Below are positions 7,720-55,114 of a stretch of 64,000 nt of DNA, piece after piece. The stretch is from Thermosynechococcus sichuanensis E542 (GTDB lineage Bacteria > Cyanobacteriota > Cyanobacteriia > Thermosynechococcales > Thermosynechococcaceae): NCBI RefSeq assembly GCF_003555505.1, contig NZ_CP032152.1, positions 1,659,001 to 1,723,000 of the forward strand, in the 5' to 3' direction. The first letter of the stretch is position 1; every line of letters begins with the position of its first letter. The translations under genes and the position numbers were made by a program. Under the pieces are notes generated by a model, which worked only from the letters and a program-made list of their open reading frames with translations, did no database searches and was not told the DNA's origin.

Positions 7720-8745
7720 TTAGGCGGGGGTGAGAGGGAAAACCGATCCTTTGCTCAGAGTCTGTGCCCAAGCGATCGCCGCCAGAAAACTCTGTGGGTC
7801 TGCCATCCCTGTACCCGCAATATCAAAGGCCGTACCGTGATCTGGGGAGGTGCGAATAAAGGGCAGGCCAATCGTCGTATTCACCGCCTCCCGAAAGGCC
7901 AGCATCTTCACGGGAATCAATCCCTGATCGTGATAGAGCGCGAGGTAAGCATCGTAGGCAGTTGCGGGAGCAGGGCGTCCCCACCACGCATCGGCAGCCC
8001 CAATCCAGAGGGTATCAGGAGGTACAGGGCCAATCAGTTCAACTTGGGGATACTGCTGCTGGGCGTCTGCCAGCCATGGAATCAGCCAAGTCACTTCCTC
8101 TTGCCCTAGGTGTCCCTGCTCACCACTGTGGGGATTCAAGCCAGCAATGGCAATGCGAGGCCGCTCCAGATGCCGCCGTTCCCTCAGAAACTGTACAAGG
8201 AGCGCCAGTTTTTCATTGAGACGTTCAGGGGTCAGGGCTTTGGGCACCTCTTGCAGGGGGATATGGGTCGTCGCGAGTAAAGTGGTCAGCACCCAGTTAG
8301 TTACGGGCGATCGCCCCAAGAACAACATGCCCACGTTGGCGGTTCCAGTAAAGTGAGCCAGCACTTCTGTTTGACCGGCAAAAGCATAGCCTGCCGCCTG
8401 CCAACTGGCCTTAGAAATCGGTGCCGTTACAATCCCTGCCACATCGCCGGCGATCGCCCGCTGAATGGCTGTTTCTAAGTAGGCAAAGCTCGCAGCTCCA
8501 CTGGCAACACTGGGTTGTCCCGGCACAATCACCTCATCGAGGGGATGCTCCCAGATCTGAAGCTGAGCAGGATCAATGGCCACCTGTCCCTGCTGACACA
8601 GGCGAGTGTAGGTTTCCTGCAATACCTGCTGCGTACCCGCAATAAAAAACTGCCCTAACAGGTCTGAGGGCAGATGAACTAAGGCTTTCAGGAGAATTTC
8701 TGGGCCAATGCCCGCTGGATCCCCAAGGGTGAGGGCAAGGGACAT
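7720..8745 (-). CDS. pdxA: 4-hydroxythreonine-4-phosphate dehydrogenase
   Basis: Oxidises 4-hydroxythreonine-4-phosphate in the DXP-dependent route to pyridoxal phosphate. The protein of about 341 residues starts MSLALTLGDPAGIGPEI, the family N-terminus. The substrate and metal-binding segments are visible (TAPISKASWQAAGY; AGLNPHSGEQGHLGQEE; ALYHDQGLIPVK; IRTSPDHGTAFDIAGTG). The start is ATG 8745, one base after the stop of the S1 gene. A longer in-frame reading overlapping that gene was rejected. It is co-directional and likely co-transcribed with rps1. Confidence 0.95.
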   Translation of the reverse strand: MSLALTLGDPAGIGPEILLKALVHLPSDLLGQFFIAGTQQVLQETYTRLCQQGQVAIDPAQLQIWEHPLDEVIVPGQPSVASGAASFAYLETAIQRAIAGDVAGIVTAPISKASWQAAGYAFAGQTEVLAHFTGTANVGMLFLGRSPVTNWVLTTLLATTHIPLQEVPKALTPERLNEKLALLVQFLRERRHLERPRIAIAGLNPHSGEQGHLGQEEVTWLIPWLADAQQQYPQVELIGPVPPDTLWIGAADAWWGRPAPATAYDAYLALYHDQGLIPVKMLAFREAVNTTIGLPFIRTSPDHGTAFDIAGTGMADPQSFLAAIAWAQTLSKGSVFPLTPA

Positions 8746-8746
8746 C

Positions 8747-9739
8747 CTAGGCTTCTTGAAGAATCGGCTCAGCCGTATCGTCTTCAGTGGCTTCGGGAAT
8801 GTCTTCAATGACTTCCTCAGTGGTCTCTGCTGTGGCCTGCTGCTGCTGTTGCAGGAGTTGCTGACGATAGCGCTCAGCCATCTCTTCAGCCTTTTCATAG
8901 ACCAGCTGCGGATTTTTCACCATGTCACCGGGTTCTGGCTCCAGTTGCTTGGTGGACAGGGAGATCCGACCTCGCTCAGCATCAAGGTCAATAATCATCA
9001 CCTTGACTTGGTCATTGACATTGAAAACACTGTGGGGCGTGTCAATGTGATCGTGGGAAATCTCAGAAATGTGCAGCAGGCCGCTAACCCCACCAATGTC
9101 AATGAAGGCACCGTAGGGCTTGATCCCACGCACGGTTCCAACCACCACTTCACCCACTTCCAGTTTGTTCATCTTGCGCTCAACAAGGGCACGGCGGTGG
9201 CTGAGGACGAGGCGGTTGCGCTCTTCATCCACTTCTAAAAACTTCAGGGGCAGCTCTTCACCCACCAACTCCTCTTTATTCACACGGGTGCTGATGTGGG
9301 AACCGGGGATAAAGCCGCGCAGCCCTTCAATCCGCACAAGGGCACCCCCACGGTTGGTGGCAAAGACCTGAGAACGTACCGTGGCGTCTTCAGCTTGCAG
9401 TTGGCGAACGCGCTCCCAAGCCCGCATGTACTCGATACGACGAATCGAGAGGGTCAGCTGCCCTTCTTCGTTTTCATCCGCCAAGATAAAGAATTCGCGG
9501 GTTTCGTTGGGTTGCAGTACCTCTTCCGGACTGTCAATCCGGTTGATAGACATTTCTTGAATAGGGATGTAGGCAGCGGTTTTCGCACCGATGTCAATCA
9601 GGGCACCCTTCGGTTCGATGCTAAAGACGGTGCCAGCAACAATGTCGCCGGGGTTGAAGTGGTAATCGTACCGGTCCAGTAAGGCTGCAAAATCAGCATG
9701 CGTAAAGCCCACGTCTAATGTTTTTTCCTGATTGACCAT
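8747..9739 (-). CDS. rps1: Ribosomal protein S1 (cyanobacterial three-domain type)
   Basis: The 330-residue RNA-binding protein has three S1 motifs, roughly at residues 30-100 (GDIVAGTVFSIEPKGALIDIG), 115-185 (VFATNRGGALVRIEG) and 195-265 (GEVVVGTVRGIKPYGAFIDIG), followed by a glutamine-rich and acidic tail. Enterobacterial S1 has six motifs. Cyanobacteria and chloroplasts use this shorter form. The tail (QQQQQATAETTEEVIED) is low complexity. The ATG at 9739 is preceded on the coding strand by AGGAGC about eight bases upstream. Confidence 0.93.
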   Translation of the reverse strand: MVNQEKTLDVGFTHADFAALLDRYDYHFNPGDIVAGTVFSIEPKGALIDIGAKTAAYIPIQEMSINRIDSPEEVLQPNETREFFILADENEEGQLTLSIRRIEYMRAWERVRQLQAEDATVRSQVFATNRGGALVRIEGLRGFIPGSHISTRVNKEELVGEELPLKFLEVDEERNRLVLSHRRALVERKMNKLEVGEVVVGTVRGIKPYGAFIDIGGVSGLLHISEISHDHIDTPHSVFNVNDQVKVMIIDLDAERGRISLSTKQLEPEPGDMVKNPQLVYEKAEEMAERYRQQLLQQQQQATAETTEEVIEDIPEATEDDTAEPILQEA

Positions 9740-9960
9740 GCGAGTGTTTTCCTAGCTCCTTTAACGAAAATGGGGGTGTATAGTGAGTTGTCAAGCGGGC
9801 AGAAGTGGGTGCCATACGCAATCATACCAGCGATCGCTCGAACACTTTCTGACTGGATCTACAATGTTAGCCTAGAGTTTGCCCGTTGGCTAGCGGTATG
9901 GATAAAATTTTGGTCATTGATGAAGACAAATGTTAATTTTTGTGTCATTAAGGAGTGGGC

Positions 9961-10377
9961 ATGGCGCGACTGAACCGCCGACAGGTCAAGCAATTTTGGC
10001 AGGAGTTTCGCGAATTTGCCCTGAAGGGGAATGTTATCGATCTGGCGATCGCGGTCGTCGTGGGGGGTGCCTTTGGCCGCATTGTTACTTCCGTTGTTGA
10101 GGATCTGATCATGCCCTTGGTCAATCCGCTGATTCCTGGGGGCGACTGGCGGGAACTCACTGTTGGGTCAGGGATTAGAATTGGCAAGTTTTTGGGCAGC
10201 TTACTTGACTTTGGGGTGATTGCCCTCAGCTTGTTTCTTCTCCTGAAACTCATTTTGCCCTTGCTACCCAAGAAGCCCCCTGGGCCCGAACAACGGGAGT
10301 GCCCCTACTGCTTGGAGTCTGTGCCCCTCAAGGCGAGCCGCTGCCGTGCCTGTACCTCTGAACTCCCGCCTCTTTAG
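9961..10377 (+). CDS. mscL: Large-conductance mechanosensitive channel with C-terminal zinc ribbon
   Basis: Homopentameric inner-membrane safety valve that opens on hypo-osmotic shock. The 138 residues contain the N-terminal amphipathic helix (FWQEFREFALKGNVIDLA), TM1 (AIAVVVGGAFGRIVTSVVEDL), a periplasmic loop, and TM2 (FGVIALSLFLLLKLILPLLP). In place of the usual charged cytoplasmic helix, the tail carries a four-cysteine CPYC...CRAC ribbon (last 25 residues). Start ATG 9961 is supported by AGGAG six bases upstream. A GTG two codons earlier is also in frame. The ABC binding-protein gene follows after 12 bp. Confidence 0.92.
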   Translation: MARLNRRQVKQFWQEFREFALKGNVIDLAIAVVVGGAFGRIVTSVVEDLIMPLVNPLIPGGDWRELTVGSGIRIGKFLGSLLDFGVIALSLFLLLKLILPLLPKKPPGPEQRECPYCLESVPLKASRCRACTSELPPL

Positions 10378-10389
10378 GAGTCCTCAGCA

Positions 10390-11661
10390 ATGCGATCGTG
10401 GCACCGCTGGATCTGTGGGCTGTTGGTGGGGCTATGGCTGGCCATTTTAACCAGTTGCGGCACAGCGCCGCCTACCCAAGGCACCCAGATTGAATTCTGG
10501 ACAATGCAACTGCAACCCAAATTTACCGATTACTTCAACCGCCTGATTGCCGAATTTGAAGCCCAACATCCTAATGTCCACGTGCGCTGGGTGGATATTC
10601 CTTGGACGGCAATGCAGAGCAAGATTCTCATGGCGGTGTTAGCGGGCACTGCTCCCGATGTGGTGAACCTTAACCCCGACTTTGCGGCGTTGTTGGCGGG
10701 ACGCAATGCGTGGCTCAATCTCAATGACTATGTCCCCCCAGCCGTGCGTGAGCGTTATCTACCCAATATCTGGCAGGCCACCACACTGGAGGGCAAAAGC
10801 TTTGCTGTGCCCTGGTACCTCACCTCGCGGGTCACAATTTATAACAAGGCAATTCTTGCTGCCGCTGGGGTCGATCGCCCCCCCGAAACCTTTGCCGAAC
10901 TTGCCAGTGTTGCTAAAGCGGTGAAGGAGAAAACGGGCAAATACGCCTTCTTTATTACGATGGTGCCTGAGGACTCTGCCGAACTGATGCAGGCCATGGT
11001 GCAGATGGGGGTGAAGCTTGTAGATGATCAAGGCCGTGCTGCCTTTAATTCCCCAGTCGGCAAAGCCGTTTTCCAGTATTGGCTGGATCTCTATCGTCAG
11101 GGACTCTTGCCACCGCAGGTGCTCACTGAAGGCCACCGTCAAGGCATCGAACTCTATCAATCGGGACAAACGGCTCTAGTGATGACCAGTCCCGAATTTT
11201 TGAACGCGATCGCCACCAATGCCCCCAGTATTGCCGCTGTTTCCGCCCCCGCCCCCCAGTTGACCGGCGACACTGGCAAGAAAAATGTTGCCGTGATGAA
11301 TTTACTCGTCCCCCGCCAGAGTCGCCATCCTGAACTGGCCGTCGAATTTGCCCTCTTTGTCACCAATAATGAAAATCAACTCGCCTTTGCCAAGGAAGCG
11401 AATGTCTTGCCTTCTACCCAAGCAGCCTTAGGGGATCCTTACTTTCGCGCTGTCGAAGAAAATGCTACCCCTGTGGACATCGCCCGAGCCGTCAGTGCTG
11501 CTCAAATGACCCAAGCAGAGGTTCTCATTCCCCCCCTGCGGGATATTAAGGAGCTGCAACGACTCCTTTACGAAAATTTGCAGGCCGTGCTCTTGGGGCA
11601 AAAGACAATTGATCAAGCGCTCAAAGATGCAGAAACCACATGGAATAGCCGTTTGGGATAA
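10390..11661 (+). CDS. ABC transporter solute-binding lipoprotein, sugar type (family 1)
   Basis: Periplasmic binding lipoprotein of 423 residues. A signal peptide with lipobox LTSC near residue 22 precedes the mature IEFWTMQLQPKFTDYFN, followed by the family hallmarks HPNVHVRWVDIPW, AGTAPDVVNLN, and later GQTALVMTSPEFL and PRQSRHPELAVEFALF. It resembles binding proteins for glycerol-phosphate or oligosaccharides (UgpB/MalE group). No permease or ATPase gene is beside it, so the partners must be elsewhere. Start ATG follows AGGAG with 9-base spacing, 12 bp after mscL, so the two may share a transcript. Confidence 0.88.
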   Translation: MRSWHRWICGLLVGLWLAILTSCGTAPPTQGTQIEFWTMQLQPKFTDYFNRLIAEFEAQHPNVHVRWVDIPWTAMQSKILMAVLAGTAPDVVNLNPDFAALLAGRNAWLNLNDYVPPAVRERYLPNIWQATTLEGKSFAVPWYLTSRVTIYNKAILAAAGVDRPPETFAELASVAKAVKEKTGKYAFFITMVPEDSAELMQAMVQMGVKLVDDQGRAAFNSPVGKAVFQYWLDLYRQGLLPPQVLTEGHRQGIELYQSGQTALVMTSPEFLNAIATNAPSIAAVSAPAPQLTGDTGKKNVAVMNLLVPRQSRHPELAVEFALFVTNNENQLAFAKEANVLPSTQAALGDPYFRAVEENATPVDIARAVSAAQMTQAEVLIPPLRDIKELQRLLYENLQAVLLGQKTIDQALKDAETTWNSRLG

Positions 11662-11778
11662 ATGTTCCCACTTGCTATAAGATTTTAAGGATGCAATAGA
11701 CCTAGAGGCTTTAGTGTTTAAGACTTCTAAATTCCGAAATTACCTTTCATTGCTTCTATTATCTCAATTCAAAGTGTT

Positions 11779-12255
11779 TCATTTATTTAATTTATTCACA
11801 ATTACTTCATAGGGACGTAAGACTAGGTCTTTAACTAAATAACCTTTCTTTAGCACTTTGACTACTTTGTTATCAGGATATGACTTATCATGAATAACAT
11901 CTATAGCTCTGCAAAAATTCGGGTTAAACTGATACTCCTCTAACTTACACTCAGAAACACCTTGGGATTCTAAAACTGCGAGAAAACGATTCTTGATAGA
12001 AGTAAGATTACGTGGTAAACGCTGCAAAAATCCAGCAGGTGGATCAGGATTAGCAGATAAATACTCAGACAGACTTTCTAGAGAGTCATAGATCTCTAAA
12101 AGCTCAAGCAGAAACTCTCCTAACTTAGAATTATAAGAAGAATTAATTTGTCTAATATTTTGAGATAGCTGGGTATTTTCTCGCATTAACTGAGATATAG
12201 ATGCGAGCAGCTTCTTCTTTTGCTCCTCTGAAATCAAGAACTTTTTTGATTCCAT
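11779..12255 (-). CDS. GrpE-like nucleotide exchange factor
   Basis: Protein of 158 residues with GrpE organisation. An N-terminal coiled-coil helix (EEQKKKLLASISQLMRENTQ) comes first, then a helical bundle, then a C-terminal beta-like segment with VVKVLKKGYLVKDLVLRPY, which matches the GrpE signature (consensus around QKGY..KDRVLRPA.V.V). GrpE releases ADP from Hsp70. It is the last gene of the island operon, 17 bp after the J-like gene. It is diverged from housekeeping GrpE and presumably serves the Hsp70 encoded here. That pairing is inference from the operon. Confidence 0.8.
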   Translation of the reverse strand: MESKKFLISEEQKKKLLASISQLMRENTQLSQNIRQINSSYNSKLGEFLLELLEIYDSLESLSEYLSANPDPPAGFLQRLPRNLTSIKNRFLAVLESQGVSECKLEEYQFNPNFCRAIDVIHDKSYPDNKVVKVLKKGYLVKDLVLRPYEVIVNKLNK

Positions 12256-12272
12256 AAAAATTTACAGGCTAT

Positions 12273-12602
12273 CTATTCTAATATATCACTAATTTTACCC
12301 AATATAAATTCTAGATTTTTCAACTCATTAGGAGAACTGATATCTAATGACTTATACTGTGTCGAATTAGAATTAATAGAATCGCAATTGAAAGAGGTAA
12401 ACCTAACGGCATCTGGCAAAATCGGTAAAAGTAAGTCAGCAATTAATCGATTTTCTCTATTCATTAAAAATCTTTGAGCATTAGCAATCTGACTAGCTGA
12501 ATACTTTCGCTTTTTCATTGCAATGGCAACCGCTTGCATAATCTCTTGCCGAGATGCGGCTGGACTCAATTCCAGTATCTTATATGGATTGACTTCAATC
12601 AT
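12273..12602 (-). CDS. J-like small protein lacking the HPD motif
   Basis: Protein of 109 residues. Its N-terminus (NPYKILELSPAASRQEIMQA) reads like helix I and the turn of a DnaJ J-domain. The segment that follows (MKKRKYSASQIANAQRFLMN) has no His-Pro-Asp, the tripeptide that stimulates Hsp70 ATPase activity. The remaining 50 residues are serine- and asparagine-rich and unrecognised. Placed between the TPR-like gene (16-bp gap) and the GrpE-like gene (17-bp gap), it is probably a degenerate or specialised J protein. The family call is tentative. Confidence 0.6.
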   Translation of the reverse strand: MIEVNPYKILELSPAASRQEIMQAVAIAMKKRKYSASQIANAQRFLMNRENRLIADLLLPILPDAVRFTSFNCDSINSNSTQYKSLDISSPNELKNLEFILGKISDILE

Positions 12603-12618
12603 CTATACTTACTCCTTA

Positions 12619-14973
12619 TCACTCAAATAACTGGGGATAAATTTGACGAGCGTCAGATATCAGCCGATAAGCTAGCTGGCGTTCACTAAAAGTAGCATAT
12701 TTATTTTCTACAATTTCAAGTGCAATATCCGCCAATACTTTAGCAACTCTATACCTAACCTCAGGATACTGAGAGCTTCTAGCTCTGATGACGACCATCT
12801 CAATGTTATTACTTTGAAATAATGAATGAATTAAATCTAGCTCTTTCCAAATAGAGAACTCCTTAATTGCATCTAATAAATAGGAACTTTTGGTATCTAT
12901 TTTTAGAAGATTGTTAAGTTGACGGAGAGCTTTATCAATACTTATCAAAGATTTTGCATAGTTCTTATAAATTAGTCGTACATGAGACTCTATATAATAC
13001 TTTTTAGATTCATCAGAAACGAAGAGATTAAACCAGTCTTCTGTAAATTTAGCAGTTTTTTCTAAATCAGAACTATCCTCAGCAACCACTGAATAGCACT
13101 TGAACAGTTCATCATTGACTTTCTTTTTAAGTTCAGTGGAATTAGTTATAAATTTCTTTACCTTATTCAGCATTAAAAATGCTTCTTGAGTTTTCAGTTC
13201 ATTTAGGTAAGCTAATCCATTATAGTAATAGAAAAGTTTATGTGAGTAAGATAAATCATCTTCTCTCATTTTAGAATTATTTTCTAAGCCTCTGTCAGCA
13301 AGTTTTCTTGCAGTTGCAATATCACCATATTCAAACGCAGTAATTGCTATGCCTAAATCAGAGTAGTAGTATTGGTCAGTACTCAAGTTTGAAGAAACTT
13401 TTGAGCAGCCAGAAGACCTCAAAAATCGGTACATACTAGGAGACAGCCATATGTTGTTAATATAAATACCTCTTTTAAGATTAACTTTTAATTGATCATA
13501 AGCTGCAAGATCGCATCTGAACACATTAATAATTCGCATATATTTATCATTTTCTAGCTCATTCCGCAAATCTAGCACTCTAGATTCTATTAACTTTAAA
13601 AGTCTATCTTTGAGAGCATCTATATCTACCTCAAAATCAATCCAAAGAGATTTTTTTAGAGAAGTTTCGCGAGAAAGATTAGCAATATTAGTAATCCAAG
13701 CGGAAATGAATCGCTCAGTTTTAGAGAAATCACCATTGGTTACTGAATAATAAGAACTTATTGCTAAATTATGAAGTGATTCTATACATGGATTTTTTAA
13801 GAATTCTTCCTCACAGTGTTGAAAAATCTCATTTGTGGTTCCATTAGTGAATAAAAGTCGCTTCCGCACAGGAAGGATATGGTGATCTAAGTTTCTCTTG
13901 CATAAATCAATCTGTGGAAGATTTCTTTTACCCCCATCTGATAGTTGAAGATAGTTAAGACTAAGCTGGTATGCTTTATCATAATTAGATTTCTTAACTT
14001 CATTCTCAATTTCGGCTAATTTATTCAGATAAAATTCTTGCTGTAATTGATGAATTACTTGTATTTTCTCCTGAATCTGATATTCAGATTGTTTTTGAAT
14101 TTTATTCCAACTAATAAGTGACTGGTCTAGGTCATTTTTCAGATAACTAATCTGTCCCTCTAAATAGAGGACTTCATCCTCATCTAGAAATCTTCTATTA
14201 GATTGAATATACTCTAATGCTTTAGAAAATTCTCGTGCTTTAATGTAGGCATAAGCCAAGCGATAACGATGCTTATAGTCAGTCAAACGATCCATGAATC
14301 CAGTAAACTCACTAGATTCGTAAGCTTTCTTATAAAAATTAATGGCATCACTAAATCTATATTTTTGCTCTGCCTTAAGACCAGATTGATAAGTTGATAA
14401 TAATTTTTTGATACTTGTTAATTTTTCAAGTAGTGAAATACCATCATTCCGTTCTATAATCGCTATGGCTTCTGTCGTCTTTTGAATAGCTAGTCTTAAA
14501 TCACAACGATCAAAAAGTAACTTTGCTTCAGAGATTAATTCAAGGTAGTGCTCTTCTGCCAAAAGGTACTTATTGCACTCATCCAGTAAACTATCAAGCA
14601 CTTCTATGGCGTACAACTGTCTTGCAGATTCTATTTTAGCAACAGCTTTCTTGTAAAATTTTTGATTTATTAATCCTGTGATTTCAGAATAGAGAGCCTG
14701 AAAATCCTTTTTTCTTTGTAGCTCTTGTATAAGCTCAGACTTGAAATCTCTATAAGATTGACTTTCTTGAAAAATGAAATGATTTACTTTGTTTTTTAAG
14801 TCCGATAATAGTTCATCTAGGTACGTTGTTTCAAAAGGATTGGCACGTACTTTTGGATCAACATCATGAAATTTTTTTAGTAAACCAATAAATAAAGAAC
14901 GAGATTTTTGATAAGAGGAAACTTGAAAACTAAGATACAGTATGAATAAAAAAAGAATAATTAAAGTATACAT
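12619..14973 (-). CDS. Large membrane-anchored TPR-like helical repeat protein
   Basis: A 784-residue protein with an N-terminal hydrophobic segment at residues 1-17 (MYTLIILFLFILYLSF), then an almost wholly helical body. TPR-like units are visible around FSDAINFYKKAYESS, RLAYAYIKAREFSKALEYI, YGDIATARKLADRGL and YNGLAYLNELKTQEAFLML. No catalytic motif is seen. Such solenoids bind proteins, and TPRs are common Hsp70 partners, so a scaffold or client-receptor role at the membrane is plausible but inferred. It sits 20 bp after the LysM gene in the island operon. Strong A/T codon bias. Confidence 0.75.
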   Translation of the reverse strand: MYTLIILFLFILYLSFQVSSYQKSRSLFIGLLKKFHDVDPKVRANPFETTYLDELLSDLKNKVNHFIFQESQSYRDFKSELIQELQRKKDFQALYSEITGLINQKFYKKAVAKIESARQLYAIEVLDSLLDECNKYLLAEEHYLELISEAKLLFDRCDLRLAIQKTTEAIAIIERNDGISLLEKLTSIKKLLSTYQSGLKAEQKYRFSDAINFYKKAYESSEFTGFMDRLTDYKHRYRLAYAYIKAREFSKALEYIQSNRRFLDEDEVLYLEGQISYLKNDLDQSLISWNKIQKQSEYQIQEKIQVIHQLQQEFYLNKLAEIENEVKKSNYDKAYQLSLNYLQLSDGGKRNLPQIDLCKRNLDHHILPVRKRLLFTNGTTNEIFQHCEEEFLKNPCIESLHNLAISSYYSVTNGDFSKTERFISAWITNIANLSRETSLKKSLWIDFEVDIDALKDRLLKLIESRVLDLRNELENDKYMRIINVFRCDLAAYDQLKVNLKRGIYINNIWLSPSMYRFLRSSGCSKVSSNLSTDQYYYSDLGIAITAFEYGDIATARKLADRGLENNSKMREDDLSYSHKLFYYYNGLAYLNELKTQEAFLMLNKVKKFITNSTELKKKVNDELFKCYSVVAEDSSDLEKTAKFTEDWFNLFVSDESKKYYIESHVRLIYKNYAKSLISIDKALRQLNNLLKIDTKSSYLLDAIKEFSIWKELDLIHSLFQSNNIEMVVIRARSSQYPEVRYRVAKVLADIALEIVENKYATFSERQLAYRLISDARQIYPQLFE

Positions 14974-14993
14974 ACTATATATCCTTTAAGTGC

Positions 14994-15491
14994 CTAGTCT
15001 ATACGTATTTTTTCTCCAATATCAATCTGATTCACTCTTGAGCTTAAGTGGGGATTTTTTATGACGAGTTCTGGCCATCTATTAGCATTGCCAAGGTAGT
15101 TCTGGGCAATTGAAGATAATGAATCTCCTTGTTGAACAATATGGTATCTCCTTGGTTGAAGATCTTTTGTACCTTGGGCAATAGGTAGCTTAGTAAAGCT
15201 GATGGAATTTTGCTCTATACCATTAGTTACTTGGGTTAGCAGGCTTGCATAGTAGCTATTTAGAAAATAGAATAAAGCGGATAATACAGATGTAATGATA
15301 AGTAGAAAAATTAGTGTTTGTCTAGTTGAATATTGTTGCGCTTTAGTCTCTACTACCTCTTCTAGAGAATTTAGTAAAATAAGGTTCTCCAGTCTAGCAT
15401 CACAATTTGGACAAACCTCTTCTCCAGAGATTTGATGTTCGCATACTGGACACATAAACTTTACTTTATTTTGTTTAGATTCTGTGTTCAT
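14994..15491 (-). CDS. Zinc-ribbon, single-TM, LysM protein
   Basis: The 165-residue protein has three parts in order: an N-terminal zinc ribbon with CPVC at residues 14-17 and CPNC near residue 28; one transmembrane helix near residues 60-82 (TLIFLLIITSVLSALFYF); and a C-terminal LysM domain (YHIVQQGDSLSSIAQNYLGN) at about residues 115-165. LysM usually binds N-acetylglucosamine polymers such as peptidoglycan. With the ribbon inside the cell the LysM would face the periplasm, linking a cytoplasmic chaperone to the wall. The start follows the Hsp70 stop by 5 bp. Confidence 0.8.
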   Translation of the reverse strand: MNTESKQNKVKFMCPVCEHQISGEEVCPNCDARLENLILLNSLEEVVETKAQQYSTRQTLIFLLIITSVLSALFYFLNSYYASLLTQVTNGIEQNSISFTKLPIAQGTKDLQPRRYHIVQQGDSLSSIAQNYLGNANRWPELVIKNPHLSSRVNQIDIGEKIRID

Positions 15492-15496
15492 TTGGA

Positions 15497-17695
15497 CTAA
15501 ACTAGACCCGGCAGTGTAGGGATTGTTCCCCCTTGTGTTTCTTTAAGAATTTCAATAGATTCATTAATTAATTGTCTATATATAACGTCTGCTTCTTCAA
15601 GATTTCCTTGTCGCATTAATTCTAATAACTTAATAAACCTAGTAGATAATTCAGTTGAACTGCTGTTAATAGCACCTTCTCTGATAATTTCTAAGGCTTG
15701 TACTATTTCTGGTAATAATTTCAACTCTTTGTCATAATCGTCCTCTATTTTTTCAGTCGATAAATTTTTAGTTTGGATTGATTTTTGAACTGATACTTTT
15801 ATATTTTGTATGCGAGACTTTTGAGCATCATCTAGTAAAAAATCATACAACTCAAGTAAGCTATCGCACCTGTTCTCTATTGCGTCCATTTTTATCTTTG
15901 CAGGTGAATTATTAAACTTGAAATCTTCTAGTTTTTTTGTAGCTCTTACAATAATATCTTGATTTTCAATATTATTAATTTCAATTTGATTAGCTAAAAA
16001 TATTACCTCACATGCCTCTTTTTGAATTTCAGATACACCATATTTCGTTAAACTTATTTCAGCGTTAATTTCGTCGATAGACTGGCTTAGCTCACGATAG
16101 ATTCTTTCATTGGCTCGGCCTTGGGTAAACGATGAGCTGACCCTGATTGATGGATCGTTCTTTAACCATGCCGTAGCAGAAAGATTTTCGTTTTTATCAT
16201 TCAGCTCAAATGTAACAACAATTTCAGTACCCTTTGGATATGGCTTATCTAAGCCTAACCACATTTCACCAATAGGCTCATCATGGTGTTTAGCTTCACC
16301 AGAGTCTAATTGATCTCGAACCAAATCGGGACTGAAAAACTTAAGGTGTATCAGCCGCTGATCATTTGCAACTGTCTTAAAGGTCTCAATTTTTTGACAA
16401 GGAAGTTGTTCTCCTTTACTGATGACTTTATAACGCGGATTGGATTCAAGTTCGATACAGTAATCACGAGAAACAGTGGTTGTTTTATCCACTAAGCCAG
16501 CAGCGACAATAGCTGCTCCTTCAGCTACGGCATACATTGGCCTTGGGTGAATGACAACCTTATTCCCAAATGCCTCTCGTACAGACTGTTGGACGTAGGG
16601 AATTTGTGACGAGCCACCTACCATTAAAACGACATCAATATCGCTAGGGAAAAACTCAGATAAACTTAAAGCTTGATGGCAGATTTGAATAGTGCGATCT
16701 ACATAAGGCTTGATCATTGCCTCTAGTTCAGAGCGTCTAATTTTGACTTCAATGGGAATGTCAAATCCATTATCATCTAACAATGGTGTTGCAGGAGAGA
16801 TAACAAATTCTTCTTTGCTACTTAGAGCAATTTTTGCCCTTTCAATAGCACTTTTTAGGTCAGAAATAAACTTGAGCTTTTGATAGTGGGGCATTTTATT
16901 CATTTGCTGATCAAAGTCATCTAGACCCTCTTGTTCAGTGACTTTACTTTTGACAAATTGGGTAATCTTATGATCAATATCATCACCACCGAGCCACAGG
17001 TCACCTGCTTTACCAAGTTCTATAAACATTGAACCAGTTGCTTGAATGACCGATGCATCAAAGGTGCCACCGCCAAAGTCATAGACTAGGATTGTCTTAA
17101 ACTCAGATGAGTTTGGCTTAAAACCATAGGAAATTGCCGCTGCTGTAGGTTCAGGTAAGAGTTCTAGCAGAGTTAAACCAGCCTTTTGACAAGCACGGCG
17201 GGTTGCACTGCGTTGACTGTCATTGAAGTATGCGGGTACAGTGACCACTGCTTGATTGATAGTATTGTTGCCAATATGATTCTTTCTGAGATATTCTTGG
17301 CTATTCCTGACGACTTTTTTTAGAATTTCAGCCGAGATGTCTTCAGGTAAAAATTCTTGCTCGTTGATCCACACAGAAAGTGCATTCTCTGTCCCTTGGG
17401 TAAACTGTGTCACCTTGTATGGAACGTTCTGAATATGCTGCTGTACTGCCGGATCATTGATGCCACGTCCCATTAGCCGTTTAATCGAGAAGATAACATT
17501 GGCTGGATTAGAACGAAATTGATTGTAAGCTGTTTCACCCACAACAAGCTCATTGTTATAAATTGAGACAATTGATCTCGTTAGTTTTCTTTCTGGTGGT
17601 GTATTGTCATCTGCTGTAATAACCTCAGTCTCAGCAAGTTTAATCGCTGCTACAGAGTTCGTCGTTCCTAGGTCAATTCCAATGGCAGCAGGCAT
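15497..17695 (-). CDS. Accessory Hsp70 (DnaK-like) chaperone
   Basis: First gene of the island operon, 732 residues. The nucleotide-binding domain is canonical: IGIDLGTTNSVAA (phosphate 1) near residue 5, YDFGGGTFDASV (phosphate 2) near 195, and MVGGSSQIPYVQQ (adenosine) near 340. The substrate-binding half after residue 385 is diverged: family-like beta-sandwich segments (ELESNPRYKVISKGEQLP; GEMWLGLDKPYPKGTEI) are followed by a long helical region ending TLPGLV rather than EEVD or EVD-like tails. Start ATG 17695 begins the conserved domain; an upstream TTG at 17716 is less likely. No Shine-Dalgarno is obvious. Confidence 0.92.
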   Translation of the reverse strand: MPAAIGIDLGTTNSVAAIKLAETEVITADDNTPPERKLTRSIVSIYNNELVVGETAYNQFRSNPANVIFSIKRLMGRGINDPAVQQHIQNVPYKVTQFTQGTENALSVWINEQEFLPEDISAEILKKVVRNSQEYLRKNHIGNNTINQAVVTVPAYFNDSQRSATRRACQKAGLTLLELLPEPTAAAISYGFKPNSSEFKTILVYDFGGGTFDASVIQATGSMFIELGKAGDLWLGGDDIDHKITQFVKSKVTEQEGLDDFDQQMNKMPHYQKLKFISDLKSAIERAKIALSSKEEFVISPATPLLDDNGFDIPIEVKIRRSELEAMIKPYVDRTIQICHQALSLSEFFPSDIDVVLMVGGSSQIPYVQQSVREAFGNKVVIHPRPMYAVAEGAAIVAAGLVDKTTTVSRDYCIELESNPRYKVISKGEQLPCQKIETFKTVANDQRLIHLKFFSPDLVRDQLDSGEAKHHDEPIGEMWLGLDKPYPKGTEIVVTFELNDKNENLSATAWLKNDPSIRVSSSFTQGRANERIYRELSQSIDEINAEISLTKYGVSEIQKEACEVIFLANQIEINNIENQDIIVRATKKLEDFKFNNSPAKIKMDAIENRCDSLLELYDFLLDDAQKSRIQNIKVSVQKSIQTKNLSTEKIEDDYDKELKLLPEIVQALEIIREGAINSSSTELSTRFIKLLELMRQGNLEEADVIYRQLINESIEILKETQGGTIPTLPGLV

Positions 17696-17728
17696 GATTA
17701 ATACAGTAAGCTTCAATAACTTGTTGTC

Positions 17729-17758
17729 ATTCTAAAGATCTGATCTCTAAGTGTGCAA
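17729..17758 (-). promoter_or_regulatory. Candidate sigma-70 promoter of the Hsp70 operon
   Basis: On the minus strand TTGCAC is followed after 18 bases by TAGAAT, about 34 bases upstream of the Hsp70 ATG. It is the best -35/-10 pair in the roughly 100-base gap to kup. No CIRCE-type heat-shock inverted repeat (TTAGCACTC-N9-GAGTGCTAA) was seen, so control by HrcA is not supported. Predicted from pattern only. Confidence 0.4.
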
Positions 17759-17794
17759 GTACTTTCTGTAAATTTTTGTGACTAGCTATTAGCT

Positions 17795-19669
17795 TTATAT
17801 CTCTACCTGTATGCCAAGCTCCACCACTTGTTCGGGTGGCAGGCGAAAGTAGGTCATGGCATCTTCAGCATTGCGATATAGCCAAGCAAAGACAACCTTT
17901 TGCCAGTAGCTCATGCCGGGGGCGTGGGTGGGGATGATTGTCCGACGGCCTAGGAAGAAACTCATGGGTTCGTTGAGGGGGAGATTGAGGGCACTTTGGC
18001 AGGTTTCAAGGGCGAGAAGGACATCGGGGCGATCGCGAAACCCCGAGGTCAGGATGATCTCATAAATACCGACATCCGTGACTGTGTAACCTAGTTGTTC
18101 TGACAAGGGTACATGGGGTAGATTCGCAGTTGCTAAATGGATAAAGATAATCTGCTGATGCAACACATGATTGTGCTGGAGGTTTTGAATAAAGGTGAGT
18201 GGAATCATATGGGGAAGCGGTGAGAAGAAAACAGCGATCCCCGGCACACGGGCGATCCCTTGATTGAGCAGTTCTTTGAGGGAGAAGTGGGCATTCGCTT
18301 GCAGGAGTTGCCGACGCAGCAGAACCTGTCCTTGGCGCCACGTCACTAAGAGCATATAGATGATTCCACCGAAAACGAGGGGATACCAGCCACCGTGGGG
18401 AATCTTGAGGGCGTTGCCCATGAGGAAAGCAATTTCAATCACTAAAATACTGACCCAAACAAGGCTAATTTGCCAAATAGACCACCGCCACAGGTACCGT
18501 CCCACCAGCATCAAGCAGAGGGTCGTAACCACCATGGTTAAGTTAACCGCCAAACCATAGGCACCCGCGAGTTCTGATGAGCTTCTAAAGGTGATGACCA
18601 AGAGCAGAACCGTAACTAGGAGCAACCAGTTGATCACAGGAATATAGATTTGACCACGGTGATGATCATCGGTAACATCAATGCGCAGCCGGGGCAGATA
18701 GCCCAACTTAATAGCGGCAGCAGTCATTGAAAAGGCTCCCGAAATCACCGCTTGAGACGCAATGACGGTGGCCAATGTACTGAGAAGGACTAAGGGCAAT
18801 ACGCTCCACGCAGGTACAAGTTGGAAAAAGAGATTATGGGTAGCTGTTGGATGTTTGAGAATGAAAGCACCCTGCCCCAAATAATTCAAGGCAAGGGCGG
18901 GAAAGACCAGACGATACCACGCTAAGCGAATCGGCTCGACCCCAAAGTGTCCCATGTCGGCATACATGGCCTCAGCACCCGTCAGTGCCAGAATCACCAC
19001 TCCCAATAGGAGAAGGACTTGGGGAGGATGGGTGCGAAACAGTTCTACTCCCCACCAAGGATTGAAGGCCTTCAGAATCGTGGGCTGCTCAAAGATGTGG
19101 ATTGCCCCAAGAATGCCCAAGGTCATAAACCAGACGAACATGATCGGGCCAAAGACCTGCCCCACTTGGGTGGTGCCGCGATGTTGAAACCCAAACAACG
19201 CCACAAGAATGACCACTGTTAGGGGAACTGTCCAATTCCCAAACTGGGGACTGAGTACTTCTAGCCCCTCAACGGCAGAGAGAACACTAATCGCAGGGGT
19301 AATGGTGCTATCTCCATAGAACATGGCCGCCCCTACTAGGCCGAAAATGATCACCCAGCGCCGCCAGTGGGAACTGAGGCGAATTCGCGAGAGGACAAGC
19401 GCCATCAAGGGAAAAATACCGCCTTCACCCCCGTTGTCAGCACGCAGGGCAAAGGTTGCATACTTCAACGTTGGAATGAGGACAAGCGCCCAGAGGATCA
19501 AGGACAGAATGCCGTAGATATTGGCAGGGGTAACCGTTAGAAGATGAGGGGGATTGAAGGCTTCCTCAAAGGCATAGAGGGGGCTTGTTCCTAAGTCACC
19601 ATAGACGACACCGAGGGCACCCAGAATGAGGAGCCTTGAGGGCTGGCGAGTCGCATTTGTTTTTGTCAT
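17795..19669 (-). CDS. kup: KUP-family potassium uptake transporter
   Basis: Inner-membrane K+/H+ symporter of 624 residues. The N-terminal [22 protein letters not shown] region is the family signature, followed by about twelve hydrophobic segments to residue 440 or so (among them [12 protein letters not shown] and [15 protein letters not shown]). A soluble C-terminal domain of some 180 residues follows, typical of Kup. GC content and HIP1 return to normal here, marking the end of the island. It lies 18 bp after the aminotransferase gene and appears to be the last gene of a gldA-like, aminotransferase, kup unit. Confidence 0.95.
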
Positions 19670-19687
19670 GGTCAGGTCGGGGTGAGT

Positions 19688-20884
19688 TTAGCGACTTAAG
19701 CTATCAAAGCGAATATTGGCTTGAGCCATGCGTTTAAGAGCTTCACCGAGGCGATCGCAATCAGCAATGAGGCTAATGCGCACGTATCCCTCACCCCCTT
19801 CCCCAAAAGCATTGCCGGGGGTGACAACAACGCCCGTTTCCTGAAGCAGTTTGAGGGCAAAATCTGTCGAACTCATGCCTACGGGTACGGGCACCCAGAG
19901 GTACATGGTTGCTTGGGTTGGGGTCAGTTGCCAGCCGAGTTCATTCAAGCCTTGAATCAGAAAATCCCGCCGTTGGCGATAGCGATCGCACACAGTGGCA
20001 ATGTAGCTATCGGGCAGGCTCAAGGCCACCTCTGCGGCTTTCTGCAAAACCGAAAACACCCCATAGTCTAAGTTCGTTTTCAGCGTCCGCAAACCCTGAA
20101 TAATGTGGCGATTGCCCACCACAAACCCAACCCGCCAACCGGCCATGTTGTAGGTTTTCGAGAGGGTATGGAACTCAACGCCGATTTCCTTGGCACCGGG
20201 AATTTCCAGTAGGCTTGTGGGTTGATAGCCATCAAAGGCCAGTTCAGCGTAGCAAAGGTCATGCACCAGTAAAATTTGATATTCGCGGGCAAAGGCAACG
20301 ACTTCTTCAAAGAAAGAGCGGGGAGCGATCGCCGCCGTGGGATTGCTGGGATAGTTGAAGTACAAAACCTTGGCTTGACGGGCAATGTCCCTAGGAATCT
20401 CACTGAGATCAATGAGCCAGCCCTTTTCCCGTTTCAAAATAAGGGGATAGATGTTGGCACCGGCAATGGCAGGTCCGCGAAAATGGGCAGGATAGGCGGG
20501 GCTAGGCACGAGGACAATATCCCCCGGATTCACATAGGCAAGGGCAAGGTGCGTCAGTCCCTCTTTTGATCCCAACAGGGGTAGGGCTTCACCATCGGGA
20601 TCAAGGGAGACGTTGTAGCGGCGCTGATACCAACGGGTAATGGCTTGACGGAAAACGGCTGTGCCTTCAAAGGGGGGATACCCATGGTAGCTCGGTTCCT
20701 CAAAGGCAGCGATCGCTGCTTCAATAACTGGACGCGGAGCGGCGCCATCAGGGTTGCCCATCCCCAAGTCAATTAAATCCAGTCCCTGCTGCCGTGCCTT
20801 CAGCTTCAGTTCATCGAGGCGAGCAAAAACGTAGGGCGGCAATGCCCCAAGGCGATCGGCCGGCTGAATCCACTCTAACCCCAT
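19688..20884 (-). CDS. Class I aminotransferase, LL-diaminopimelate/aspartate type
   Basis: PLP enzyme of 398 residues. Family segments are LIDLGMGNPDGAAP near residue 38, LLGSKEGLTHLALAYVNPGD near 105, YFNYPSNPTAA near 170, and the PLP lysine in TLSKTYNMAGWRVGF near 235. Related cyanobacterial proteins are annotated as LL-diaminopimelate aminotransferase (lysine and cell-wall pathway) or aspartate aminotransferase, and sequence reading alone does not decide. The ATG directly follows the TAG of the upstream GldA-like gene with no gap, which suggests coupled translation. Confidence 0.85.
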   Translation of the reverse strand: MGLEWIQPADRLGALPPYVFARLDELKLKARQQGLDLIDLGMGNPDGAAPRPVIEAAIAAFEEPSYHGYPPFEGTAVFRQAITRWYQRRYNVSLDPDGEALPLLGSKEGLTHLALAYVNPGDIVLVPSPAYPAHFRGPAIAGANIYPLILKREKGWLIDLSEIPRDIARQAKVLYFNYPSNPTAAIAPRSFFEEVVAFAREYQILLVHDLCYAELAFDGYQPTSLLEIPGAKEIGVEFHTLSKTYNMAGWRVGFVVGNRHIIQGLRTLKTNLDYGVFSVLQKAAEVALSLPDSYIATVCDRYRQRRDFLIQGLNELGWQLTPTQATMYLWVPVPVGMSSTDFALKLLQETGVVVTPGNAFGEGGEGYVRISLIADCDRLGEALKRMAQANIRFDSLSR

Positions 20885-22006
20885 CTAGCGGGCACTCCCA
20901 TCCAAGACTTTGGCACTGTAGCCGACCACGGTGGACACCATTGCTTCTAACACCAGATCAGGCGTCACGGGAAACGGCAGATAGTGAATATCAGAGTGGG
21001 GCGCACAGGCAACCGTAGCAGCGTGCTGGAGTTGTGCCAAGCTGGCCTCTTGGAAGCCCAAGTCTTCGAGAGTTAGGGGCAATCCCACCTGCTCATAAAA
21101 CTGGCAAAGTTGATGGCGGGCGCTGGTGGCCAGTTGACTGCCCTGCACAATTTCTTCCAAGCGTAGCTGCACAAGAATGCCGTAGGCTACTTTTTCGCCA
21201 TGGAGTGTCCTTTTGCTTTGAGGCAGTTGGGTTAGACCATTGTGAACCGCATGGGCTGCTACTGTGCGGCATTGGGCACCTCCTAGGCCACCAATCATCC
21301 CTGCCATGAGAACACTGGCATCAACCACATTTTCCCAAGCGGAACTGCCTACATTGGCTAAGGCTTCGGCAGACTGCTGCCAGAGAATATCCCGCAGTAT
21401 CCGCGCTTGCTGCACAGCACCAACAATCAGGGTTTCTTGGCGGTGACCACTACTCACTGAAGCTTCGTACCACTTGGCAAGAGCATCCCCAATGCCGGCT
21501 AGCAGGGTTCGCTTCGGCGCCGTTTGAATCAGGGCGTAGTCCAACAGCAGCAGATCGGGGCAACGCTGGAGTGCCACATCATAGGCAAAGGCACCGGCCT
21601 CTGTATAGATGTTGGAGAGGGCTGTCCAAGCGGCACAGGTGGCTGCTGATGTCGGGATGGTCACCACCGGCAAGTGGAGTTGATACCCCAAAAGCTTAGC
21701 GGTATCTAGGGCTTTGCCACCGCCAATGCCAATGATTAAATCACTGCCTTGTGCCTCTTGGCGGAGCTGGGCAAGGGTGGATTCACTGCACTCACCATGG
21801 AATGTTCCCACACTGAAGGTGAGATCATGGGAGCGGGCGATCGCCTGCCACTCCTGCTCAAGCTGCTGATACCGCTGCGGTGAGACTACCAAAAGGGGAT
21901 GACGCCCTAATTGCGCAATGGCTTCTCCTGCTTGGGAGAGAATTGACCAACCGCGATAGATGTGGATAGGGGCAATACAAAGGGGTGAAAACGAAGCAGC
22001 AGTCAC
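20885..22006 (-). CDS. Iron-containing alcohol dehydrogenase family, GldA-like
   Basis: NAD(P)-dependent, metal-dependent polyol dehydrogenase of 373 residues. The nucleotide-binding GIGGGKALDTAKLLG is near residue 95 and PVVTIPTSAATCAAWTALS near 120. The metal-site histidines are probably in AAHAVHNGLTQLP and TLHGEKVAYGIL. It is closest in pattern to glycerol dehydrogenase, but the substrate is not certain. Starts with GTG at 22006 and leads a three-gene unit with the aminotransferase and kup. Divergence from GldA in cyanobacteria makes a role in glycerol catabolism unproven. Confidence 0.8.
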   Translation of the reverse strand: MTAASFSPLCIAPIHIYRGWSILSQAGEAIAQLGRHPLLVVSPQRYQQLEQEWQAIARSHDLTFSVGTFHGECSESTLAQLRQEAQGSDLIIGIGGGKALDTAKLLGYQLHLPVVTIPTSAATCAAWTALSNIYTEAGAFAYDVALQRCPDLLLLDYALIQTAPKRTLLAGIGDALAKWYEASVSSGHRQETLIVGAVQQARILRDILWQQSAEALANVGSSAWENVVDASVLMAGMIGGLGGAQCRTVAAHAVHNGLTQLPQSKRTLHGEKVAYGILVQLRLEEIVQGSQLATSARHQLCQFYEQVGLPLTLEDLGFQEASLAQLQHAATVACAPHSDIHYLPFPVTPDLVLEAMVSTVVGYSAKVLDGSAR

Positions 22007-44762: not shown

Positions 44763-45866
44763 TTGAGTGCGGCGCGTATCAATCAGGCTAATGGGCGGCT
44801 AAAAGCTGCTAGAGTCGGTCTCAAGATCGAGCAGATTGGAGACCGCCTTTACCTGCGAGGTACTTTGCCTCCCAAGCCGAATAGCGGTAAAACAAAACCC
44901 TACCAGCAGCGGATCGCCCTAGGAGTGCTCGCTAATCCTGCGGGAATCAGTTTCGCTGAGAAAGAAGCTCGTCGGATCGGCGTGCTGCTCGCTACTAAGC
45001 AGTTCAATTGGGCGGAGTTTGAGCGTGGTAAACCAGAAACAATAGCGGACTGGATAGGGCGTTTTCAGGAAGACTACTTTGCTACACGGGAACGCAACGA
45101 TAAAACTGAAACTACTTGGGAGGGAGACTACCTCAAAGTTTTGCGCAAACTGCCTCCAGAGGCTCCGCTATCTTCGGAGTTGTTGCGGGAGGCAATCCTT
45201 GCCACTCCCCCTGATAGCAGAACTCGTAAGCGCACTTGCATGGTACTGGGGGCTTTGGCCAAGTTTGCCAACCTAGATTTGGACGTAAGCCGATACAGCG
45301 GTTCCTACTCTCCCAAGTCAACCGCTCCACGGAGCATTCCAGATGACTGTTTGATTGCGCAGTGTTATTACCAACTCGATAATCCTGCTTGGCGGTGGGT
45401 GTACGGCATGCTGGCCACTTACGGGCTGAGACCGCATGAGGTGTTTCGTCTGAATTTTGAGCGATTGAAGCGGGGGGAGCTGGTGCTGGAAGTTCTTGAG
45501 AATACCAAGACGGGATTCCGTCGCGTGTGGCCGTGTTATCCAGAGTGGTTTGAAGAATTCCGCCTAGCTCAAGTCCAGTTGCCCCGGATAAACACAAAAA
45601 GGCCCAACCTAGCAGTAGGTCGAGCCTGTAGTCAATATCTCTCAGCCAAACTTCCTTTTCGTCCTTACGATCTTAGGCGCGCTTGGGCGGTGCGGACACT
45701 TGCCTTTGGACTAGACCTGAGTTTGGCGGCTCAGCAGATGGGGCACTCGGTGCAAGTGCATTGTACGACTTATCACCGGTGGATCTCCGAACAGCATCAT
45801 CAGGCTGCGTTTGAGGCGTTGATGTTGCGGGCTGATCGCCCAAAAGCACCAATCCTAAATCACTAG
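44763..45866 (+). CDS. Tyrosine recombinase (integrase)
   Basis: A 367-residue site-specific recombinase. An N-terminal core-binding region around ETIADWIGRFQEDYFATRER is followed by the catalytic domain with Arg I in TYGLRPHEVFRLNF near residue 221, the beta-hairpin Lys in ENTKTGFRRVW, the box II segment PYDLRRAWAVRT (Tyr where His is usual before LRR), QQMGHSVQVH, and the nucleophile Tyr in TTYHRW near 340. Starts at TTG 44763, 156 bases past the tRNA-Ala end. The layout indicates integration into that tRNA. Confidence 0.88.
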   Translation: MSAARINQANGRLKAARVGLKIEQIGDRLYLRGTLPPKPNSGKTKPYQQRIALGVLANPAGISFAEKEARRIGVLLATKQFNWAEFERGKPETIADWIGRFQEDYFATRERNDKTETTWEGDYLKVLRKLPPEAPLSSELLREAILATPPDSRTRKRTCMVLGALAKFANLDLDVSRYSGSYSPKSTAPRSIPDDCLIAQCYYQLDNPAWRWVYGMLATYGLRPHEVFRLNFERLKRGELVLEVLENTKTGFRRVWPCYPEWFEEFRLAQVQLPRINTKRPNLAVGRACSQYLSAKLPFRPYDLRRAWAVRTLAFGLDLSLAAQQMGHSVQVHCTTYHRWISEQHHQAAFEALMLRADRPKAPILNH

Positions 45867-45927
45867 GCCAAAGGGTTGGCTCCTCCAGAAGACGCACTTG
45901 GAGCAAAAGTTAAAAAAGTGGGCTGAT

Positions 45928-45987
45928 AGGTTGGTCAGGTTGGTCAGCCCTCTGCTGGAGCGCTTTTCAGGTTGGTCTAGGTTGGTC
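45928..45987. repeat. Four copies of AGGTTGGTC, two as a 9-bp tandem
   Basis: AGGTTGGTC occurs at 45928, 45937, 45969 and 45979. The first two are adjacent with 9-base period, the last two have 10-base period. The second pair lies in the 3' end of the primase-like gene, where it encodes the terminal DQPRPT. Spacing near one helical turn fits a protein-binding iteron, but slippage of a coding repeat is equally possible. Confidence 0.6.
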
Positions 45988-46872: not shown

Positions 46873-47038
46873 CTCGCTCCTCCTGCCGCTCCACCTTACG
46901 AGTTGCTTTATCCAGATACCTTTCGGTAATCTCGCTGAGCAACTGGCTAACTGCTGTGTTTTCTTTAATCGCTTGAATCTTGAGACGGGCGATCAAGTCC
47001 GGATCCATGAAAACAGTGAGTCGATGTTTTTGCTGCAT
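46859..47038 (-). CDS. Ribbon-helix-helix (CopG/Arc-like) small protein
   Basis: A 59-residue protein, MQQKHRLTVFMDPDLIARL onward. The short beta strand (HRLTVFM), then helix (PDLIARLKIQAIKEN), turn, and second helix (TAVSQLLSEITERYLD) follow the RHH fold; such dimers bind palindromic operators. Start ATG 47036-47038 faces the XRE gene across a 104-base region with nested inverted repeats, suggesting autoregulation. Its 3' end overlaps the primase-like start by 14 bases. Likely a copy-number or expression regulator of the element. Confidence 0.72.
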   Translation of the reverse strand: MQQKHRLTVFMDPDLIARLKIQAIKENTAVSQLLSEITERYLDKATRKVERQEERDAES

Positions 47039-47098
47039 AAACTTGACAATTTAGTGTACATACAGCAGCTTAGACCTGGTTGAAGTGGTTGTCAACGT

Positions 47099-47136: not shown

Positions 47137-47142
47137 GTAGGC

Positions 47143-47475: not shown

Positions 47476-47476
47476 G

Positions 47477-55109: not shown

Positions 55110-55114
55110 CTCCT

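Follow-up and report, generated by a model that had tools for sequence, protein, structure and literature searches.

A recurrent five-gene Hsp70 operon with a predicted membrane anchor and without the canonical J-protein contact in Thermosynechococcus sichuanensis and other cyanobacteria

The operon and its insertion in one genome

The window analysed here is a 64,000-nucleotide stretch of Thermosynechococcus sichuanensis E542 (contig NZ_CP032152.1, positions 1,659,001 to 1,723,000 of the forward strand). It carries an operon of five minus-strand genes, spanning 11779-17695, that encode an Hsp70, a zinc-ribbon protein with a transmembrane (TM) helix and a LysM domain, a helical protein of tetratricopeptide repeat (TPR) type, a J-like protein, and a GrpE. 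Positions below are those of the window.

15497-17695, minus strand: Hsp70, first gene, 732 amino acids (Pfam HSP70, E 6.7e-99)
14994-15491, minus strand: protein of 165 amino acids with a zinc ribbon (CxxC..CxxC), a single TM helix (residues 59-77) and LysM (Pfam LysM, E 5e-6)
12619-14973, minus strand: TPR-type all-helical solenoid, 784 amino acids, with an N-terminal hydrophobic stretch (residues 1-19) in the window copy
12273-12602, minus strand: J-like protein, 109 amino acids, no HPD, helix II-III loop shortened
11779-12255, minus strand: GrpE, 158 amino acids (Pfam GrpE, E 3.7e-23); the genome has one other GrpE match
11673-17798: block inserted relative to five congeners, which lack it (edges accurate to a few bases)
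10390-11661, plus strand: left flanking gene, immediate neighbour of the right flank in five congeners; presumably solute-binding-protein-like
17795-19669, minus strand: right flanking gene, protein 88-93% identical in the same five congeners; presumably KUP-type potassium-transporter-like

The genes follow one another in the transcription order Hsp70, zinc ribbon, TPR, J-like, GrpE, with intergenic gaps of 5, 20, 16, and 17 bp, and the GC content of the block is 0.31-0.36 compared with about 0.53 around it. This agrees with a first-pass annotation of the same DNA, which had described five genes packed on one strand at 5-20 bp in an AT-rich island; all five open reading frames (ORFs) are present. 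The limits it gave, 11662-17794, capture the block, but base 17794 directly adjoins the flanking gene, and the Hsp70 start codon lies at 17695. Matches of the single zinc-ribbon, TPR, and J-like proteins of the window fall below curated Pfam cut-offs, and their assignments rest on family profiles and alignments. The genome, 2.65 Mb in one contig, encodes three full-length DnaK-type proteins elsewhere together with smaller Hsp70-like matches, a second GrpE that is a stronger match than the operon copy, and nine J-domain matches above the Pfam cut-off, eight of which have the HPD motif.

In five congeners, the sequences flanking the operon are 86-93% identical at the DNA level and are separated by only 7-60 bp, as opposed to about 6.1 kb in the window, indicating that a 6.1-kb block of exactly these five genes was inserted in the window genome. 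The five-gene block is therefore foreign to this genome, as its appearance had suggested at first sight, and it arrived as a single clean insertion. The inserted block contains no integrase ORF, and no duplication was seen. In G388, a sixth congener that has the right-hand gene, this gene is divergent and the left flank is unmatched; in four further congeners the right-hand gene is unmatched at the cut-off used. The Hsp70 of the operon is found in none of ten congeners, where the best matches are at DnaK level. The window Hsp70 forms a long isolated branch in the Hsp70 tree, suggesting that no close donor has been sampled. The five-gene locus is not mobile everywhere, since it has stable core neighbours in several Nostocales.

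Recurrence of the five-gene set

Relatives of the TPR protein (E<=1e-3) occur in 26 of 386 cyanobacterial genomes, representing 22 of 142 genera, and a profile search with the Hsp70 substrate domain (E<=1e-25) finds 24 of the 386 genomes. Twenty-three genomes are common to both searches, with a TPR match in 23 of the 24 Hsp70-positive genomes (hypergeometric P 1e-32, ignoring the relatedness of the genomes); the co-occurrence of the five families is not due to chance. Among the three genomes with a TPR match only, the loci of G070 and G111 are cut by contig ends, and the locus of G368 has decayed to a remnant (L079:8546-10409) that holds GrpE, the J-like gene, and a short TPR piece, the Hsp70 being gone. 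The genome with an Hsp70 match only, G026, belongs to another class of the phylum; profiles recover all five genes there, and the zinc-ribbon gene leads the operon.

A scan of the genome collection yielded 71 loci, 70 of them cyanobacterial and one from a gammaproteobacterial metagenome-assembled genome (MAG); a few loci share one genome, for example L136 and L149. Fifty-six loci are complete, and all 56 have the order Hsp70, zinc ribbon, TPR, J-like, GrpE on one strand, with median intergenic gaps of -4, -4, 13, and 1.5 bp. The five families thus co-occur in other genomes as a recurrent unit, the comparison that the first-pass annotation had proposed as a check. Fifteen loci lack one or more families by automatic calling. 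Ten of these end less than 1 kb from a contig end (L113, L119, L130, L136, L143, L145, L149, L150, L152, and L154), L139 is a remnant, L102, L122, and L141 each lack some genes, and in L153 the J-like gene was found by hand and the TPR gene was reached only at a weaker threshold. A further genome that has the five-gene operon, G401, also carries five Hsp70-like ORFs on a single strand (L083).

L153 is the gammaproteobacterial locus, and it holds the Hsp70, zinc-ribbon/TM, TPR, and J-like genes and the start of GrpE in the usual order, without LysM. An inserted zinc ribbon interrupts its Hsp70 (8702-11011) immediately ahead of the substrate domain, as though the partner protein's ribbon had found its way into the Hsp70 as well. 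The neighbouring genes, which we take to be an RNase E/G-type gene and an Mpl-like gene, and the 35% identity of its Hsp70 argue against cyanobacterial contamination. This occurrence is one contig of one MAG; searches of the class sample (1 of 369) and of the order (1 of 17) returned only the starting genome each time.

Sequence features of the Hsp70 and its partners

The Hsp70 alignment comprises 88 rows (25 from alignment A1, 62 ORFs of more than 700 amino acids from the 71 loci, and L183, the G026 locus), of which 12 are duplicates and 76 unique. The ATP site is retained: 16 of 18 positions, including D8, T11, K70, E171, T199, and D201, are identical in all 88 rows. One of the two exceptions, M346, is isoleucine in 84 rows and also in 18 of 20 DnaK-type controls; the other, R345, is considered below.

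The contacts that a J-protein makes with Hsp70 are described in a passage of PMC8215388, in which H33 of the HPD pairs with L391 and D35 with R167 and Q378. The D(HPD)-R pair has been called invariant in a passage of PMC7289447, and the interdomain linker is described as essential for Hsp70 allostery in passages of both papers (PMC7289447, PMC8215388). By alignment, linker residues 390-395, including L391 and D393, are absent from all 88 system Hsp70s. R167 is kept in one row and replaced by glutamate in 81, N170 in none (proline in 75, serine in 9, alanine in 4), and Q378 in none (valine in 87, isoleucine in 1). The controls keep R167, N170, L391, and D393 in 20 of 20 cases and Q378 in 19, and all five residues are kept in E. 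coli HscA and HscC. The window Hsp70 follows the family, with R167 changed to E, N170 to P, Q378 to V, and the linker missing; its phosphate-binding and catalytic residues are intact. On the partner side, HPD occurs in none of 59 J-like ORFs and is likewise missing in L153 and L183. The alignments show a joint loss of the canonical J-triggering elements on the two partners: HPD on the J-like side, and R167, Q378, and the linker with L391 and D393 on the Hsp70 side. All parts of an Hsp70 cycle had appeared to be present, and an Hsp70, a J-like protein, and a GrpE are indeed there, but the canonical contact between the first two is missing on both sides.

Other surfaces of the Hsp70 are kept. 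All 88 rows retain P419, the third HPD contact, which may leave part of the docking surface in place. The loop linked to GrpE binding keeps its length by alignment, unlike that of HscA and HscC. Cleft positions 401 (I, L, or V), 426 (F), and 436 (mostly I) are still hydrophobic; position 481 is asparagine in cyanobacterial DnaKs too and was therefore not used. All 90 system rows fall in a separate clade of the Hsp70 tree with a support of 0.992, and the window Hsp70 is 36, 36, and 34% identical to the three other DnaK-type proteins of its genome. Its AlphaFold2 model (predicted local distance difference test, pLDDT, 88.7; predicted TM-score, pTM, 0.82) matches the DnaK/BiP fold (6eof, Z 52.3, 2.0 A over 485 residues). 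The modelled C-terminus is extended and helical, with nine helices in 528-719; known Hsp70s cover residues 1-663 in the fold search, leaving the rest barely tested.

Across the 71 loci, a simple hydropathy rule predicts a single TM helix in 66 of 66 zinc-ribbon ORFs, and 65 have a C4 ribbon. Among 58 long zinc-ribbon proteins, the side of the ribbon judged by charge is N-in in 44, tied in 13, and N-out in 1. LysM is found in 54 of the 66, and 51 of these 54 have exactly two cysteines beyond the TM helix, which fits an oxidising periplasm; a LysM domain so placed would lie outside the membrane and could bind peptidoglycan. Two of 66 TPR ORFs (L114 and L126) also carry LysM, placed between two predicted TM helices. 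As judged from these predictions, the zinc-ribbon/TM protein is the constant anchor of the set, and LysM and the TPR anchor are optional. The AlphaFold2 model of the TPR protein (pLDDT 88.0, pTM 0.53) is an essentially all-helical solenoid whose fold matches are generic TPR solenoids and scaffolds, including the Hsp70 co-chaperone P58(IPK). Both models are single chains, built on alignments that took 35 of 38 and 34 of 34 non-redundant relatives.

The J-like family aligns with E. coli DnaJ and the nine J-domains of the genome at a probability of 95.95 (hhalign, E 5e-9 for a single comparison, 53 columns, HPD loop gapped), and its profile matches solved J-domains with a best E of 1.8e-4. Without HPD, the protein does not strictly qualify as a J-domain protein and is therefore termed J-like. 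Four loci encode an Hsp70 of this type that continues at its C-terminus into a J-like domain: L056 (11093-13516), L065 (11486-13636), L149, and L154. The fusions of L056 and L065 are second, complete Hsp70s within the operon and lack the linker; the Hsp70 parts of the L149 and L154 fusions are incomplete. The L056 and L065 fusions each branch beside their own operon's group, suggesting that fusions arose at least twice. These natural fusions indicate that the J-like protein and this Hsp70 belong together. The GrpE family profile matches solved GrpE structures 4ani (6e-10) and 1dkg (1.5e-8).

Family alignments A2-A5 omit cut, split, fused, long, or second-match copies: L067, L072, and L074 in A2; L059 (twice), L078, and L079 in A3; L056, L059, L065, and L080 in A4; and one second GrpE match of L069 in A5.

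Possible function and relation to known systems

The evidence tips, though only slightly, toward a mobile Hsp70 machine, insulated and tethered to the membrane, whose allostery has been rewired and which works at the cytoplasmic face of the inner membrane, where it would likely hold, remodel, or assemble envelope proteins. An envelope proteostasis or assembly role is the first choice and probably the right one. In such a machine, the zinc-ribbon protein would tether the Hsp70 to the inner membrane, and in most lineages its LysM domain would reach peptidoglycan. The Hsp70 would be insulated from the nine other J-domain proteins of the cell, eight of them with HPD, and the J-like protein, for which Pam16-type proteins offer a comparison, may dock or recruit and not fire the ATPase in the usual way. 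The TPR solenoid and the zinc-ribbon protein could together hold the Hsp70 at the membrane and deliver clients, with GrpE resetting it as a putative exchange factor and client work possibly gated by contact with the wall. A whole natural family lacks both the "invariant" D(HPD)-R pair and the "essential" linker and yet retains catalytic residues and a GrpE, and the requirements for a J-protein to drive an Hsp70 thereby become directly testable. Should the LysM domain work as predicted, a cytoplasmic Hsp70 would be linked to the cell wall.

Several observations weigh against the membrane-tethered machine. Two partners were originally thought to carry membrane anchors, and in the window copy they do; across relatives the TM helix is constant in the zinc-ribbon protein, but the N-terminal TPR anchor is found in only 14 of 60, and most TPR proteins lack one. 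The proposed wall-binding domain is likewise present in the window and optional in the family, 12 of 66 zinc-ribbon proteins being without LysM, and the LysM region of the window copy has no cysteine. Long J-like proteins (L080:14336-15754, L088:14374-15840, and L093:9131-10351) have weak SPOR matches at or below the Pfam cut-off, and a TM-like stretch is visible in that of L080. With LysM on zinc-ribbon or TPR proteins and weak SPOR on J-like proteins, peptidoglycan contact appears to be a recurring but optional theme. The loss of HPD could make the J-like protein a mere structural relic. At the ATP site, R345 is glutamine in 84 of 88 rows, whereas all 20 controls have arginine, and the handling of nucleotide may therefore be different as well. 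Cleft positions 404 and 429 vary across the family, with glutamate at 404 in the window Hsp70, and the gammaproteobacterial Hsp70 retains R167. Neither CIRCE nor a near-CIRCE heat-shock operator occurs in the 71 loci, and none occurs in the window at up to 3 mismatches, which speaks against an ordinary HrcA-type heat-shock role. Finally, the patchy distribution and the fast divergence of the TPR protein (22-25% identity to the window copy) would also fit a conflict system.

A bolder version of the same reading, which we regard as rather improbable, is a fourth bacterial Hsp70 kind besides DnaK, HscA, and HscC, with an ATP cycle that does not use the HPD-R167-linker switch, is gated by wall contact or strain through the zinc-ribbon/TM/LysM protein, and moves between cyanobacteria as a five-gene cassette.

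The main rival to the membrane-tethered machine, unlikely in our estimate, is a biological-conflict (anti-phage) system in which a membrane- and wall-linked Hsp70 assembly would sense infection. It suggests itself because GAP1-N2 neighbourhoods combine the same parts. According to section 29 of Kaur et al. 2020 (PMC7159879), these systems include zinc ribbons, TM segments, peptidoglycan-binding domains, HSP70 with GrpE, and FNIII proteins fused to DnaJ or TPR; HSP70, GrpE, DnaJ-type, and TPR parts belong to the second theme of the GTPase-centric systems (the J-like protein here lacks HPD), and action near the membrane is proposed there. In G026, PP2C, vWA, and TCAD9-like genes, the last below cut-off, lie beside the operon on the opposite strand (L183:8008-11830), a trio resembling the TerY-P or GAP1-N2 third-theme triad. 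The mobility and patchy distribution of the operon would suit conflict as well. Against these points, Pfam recognises no nuclease, TIR, pore, or other effector domain in the five window proteins, and PADLOC 2023 gives nothing for them below E 0.02 (best PbeC, E 0.027, for GrpE). GAP1-N2 (PF20013) is found in 0 of 25 system genomes; DO-GTPase2 (PF19993) is matched in 10 of the 25, at the operon in none of the 14 places listed, and not in G000, and membership in the GTPase-centric systems is rejected on this basis. The immediate neighbours of the loci are diverse, with 122 genes in 88 groups. When 74 of the groups were scanned with Pfam and PADLOC, none of the first 25 families listed by each recurs in more than two. 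PADLOC matches to these neighbours span 138 families, a weak result because it holds generic families and there was no background set. An association with defence islands thus shows no sign around the loci, though again without a background set. Nor is there a confirmed relative of the Hsp70 substrate domain in viral contigs (28 pattern matches, 0 confirmed) or a plasmid match to the TPR protein.

About equally unlikely is a client-specific assembly chaperone that, by analogy with HscA/HscB, would build one membrane- or wall-associated complex whose genes lie elsewhere. A dedicated operon with a divergent TPR protein fits client specificity, and HscC with tail-anchored DjlB/DjlC offers a membrane precedent in a passage of PMC8215388. 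The diversity of the neighbours argues otherwise, since it leaves no fixed sixth gene, and system Hsp70s keep the GrpE loop that HscA and HscC dropped. A little less probable still is that the protein is not a chaperone at all and uses the Hsp70 fold as an ATP-driven switch or scaffold, a nucleotide-dependent sensor coupling wall to membrane. The loss of the linker and R167 points that way, and reuse of Hsp70-like domains has been proposed for CoCoNuT systems in a passage of PMC11090510; the predicted substrate-domain fold (the BiP match given above), the hydrophobic cleft positions 401, 426, and 436 (positions 404 and 429 vary), and the retained GrpE speak for a chaperone. It is hardly credible that the Hsp70 is just one more DnaK paralogue accompanied by housekeeping partners in an AT-rich island formed by chance, the outcome that would have undone the original proposal. 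Pfam HSP70 and GrpE matches are all that this reading explains, and it is ruled out by the recurrence of the five genes in a gammaproteobacterial MAG and two classes of cyanobacteria, the empty site, the separate clade (90 of 90 rows, support 0.992), and an identity of at most 36% to the genome's own DnaKs.

The five-gene set is a variant of the Hsp70-machine kind and not a member of any named system tested. It is unmatched in PADLOC, and no description was found in open full-text PMC literature (subscription papers were outside the scope), in line with the initial impression that no named system has this composition. It shares with DnaK-DnaJ-GrpE the Hsp70 fold and catalytic residues, a GrpE family member with the corresponding loop, and a J-like fold by profile, but it lacks the linker, R167, Q378, and HPD and has a zinc-ribbon membrane protein and a TPR solenoid as constant partners. 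Compared with GAP1-N2 systems, which are mainly actinobacterial or firmicute, its hosts are cyanobacterial; GAP1-N2 is absent from the 25 genomes, the set includes neither a DO-GTPase nor an FNIII protein, its zinc ribbon and wall domain are carried by a small protein of their own, and its J-like protein lacks HPD. The HscA/HscB Fe-S chaperones resemble it in that one operon couples a specialised Hsp70 to a J partner of its own; HscA keeps R167 and the linker, HscB has HPD, the GrpE loop is lost, and no Fe-S gene belongs to the five-gene set here. In E. coli, HscC with tail-anchored DjlB/DjlC is likewise a specialised Hsp70 with its own J-proteins, a proposed membrane role, and a sporadic distribution, as a passage of PMC8215388 has it. 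HscC is nonetheless a mirror image of the present system, as it keeps R167, N170, Q378, and the linker, DjlC has HPD, and the GrpE loop is gone. Deletion of the loop linked to GrpE binding is described for both HscA and HscC in part of PMC8215388; by alignment, HscA and HscC lack the GrpE loop but retain the J switch, and the system Hsp70s are the reverse. Another comparison is offered by Pam16/Tim16-type proteins, which have a J-like fold without HPD in a membrane Hsp70 motor. Here, however, the operon has no HPD-bearing Pam18-type partner, and the Hsp70 itself lacks the HPD-contacting residues.

Two sources of the block were considered and set aside. A phage origin is unsupported, as no confirmed relative of the substrate domain came from viral contigs; PHROGs matches are to an Hsp70-like family of unknown function and to LysM-bearing families, with weak GrpE-like and TPR matches besides. 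Plasmid carriage is rejected, as the TPR protein has no plasmid match and plasmid Hsp70 matches are all below 60% identity, with gene names, where given among the 30 and 20 rows listed, of dnaK or hscA. Promoter-like sites number 32 compared with 24.0 (sd 5.3) in shuffled sequence, no clear excess, terminator-like sites number 2 compared with 3.5 in shuffles, and window positions 9000-21000 have no Rfam match.

Elsewhere in the window, a second AT dip at 44763-49051 contains ORFs that we take to be recombinase-like (44763-45866), DUF3854-like (45967-46872), and IS4-type transposase-like (48293-49051). At 54258-57074 lie what are presumably KaiA-like and KaiC-like ORFs, that is, circadian clock genes.

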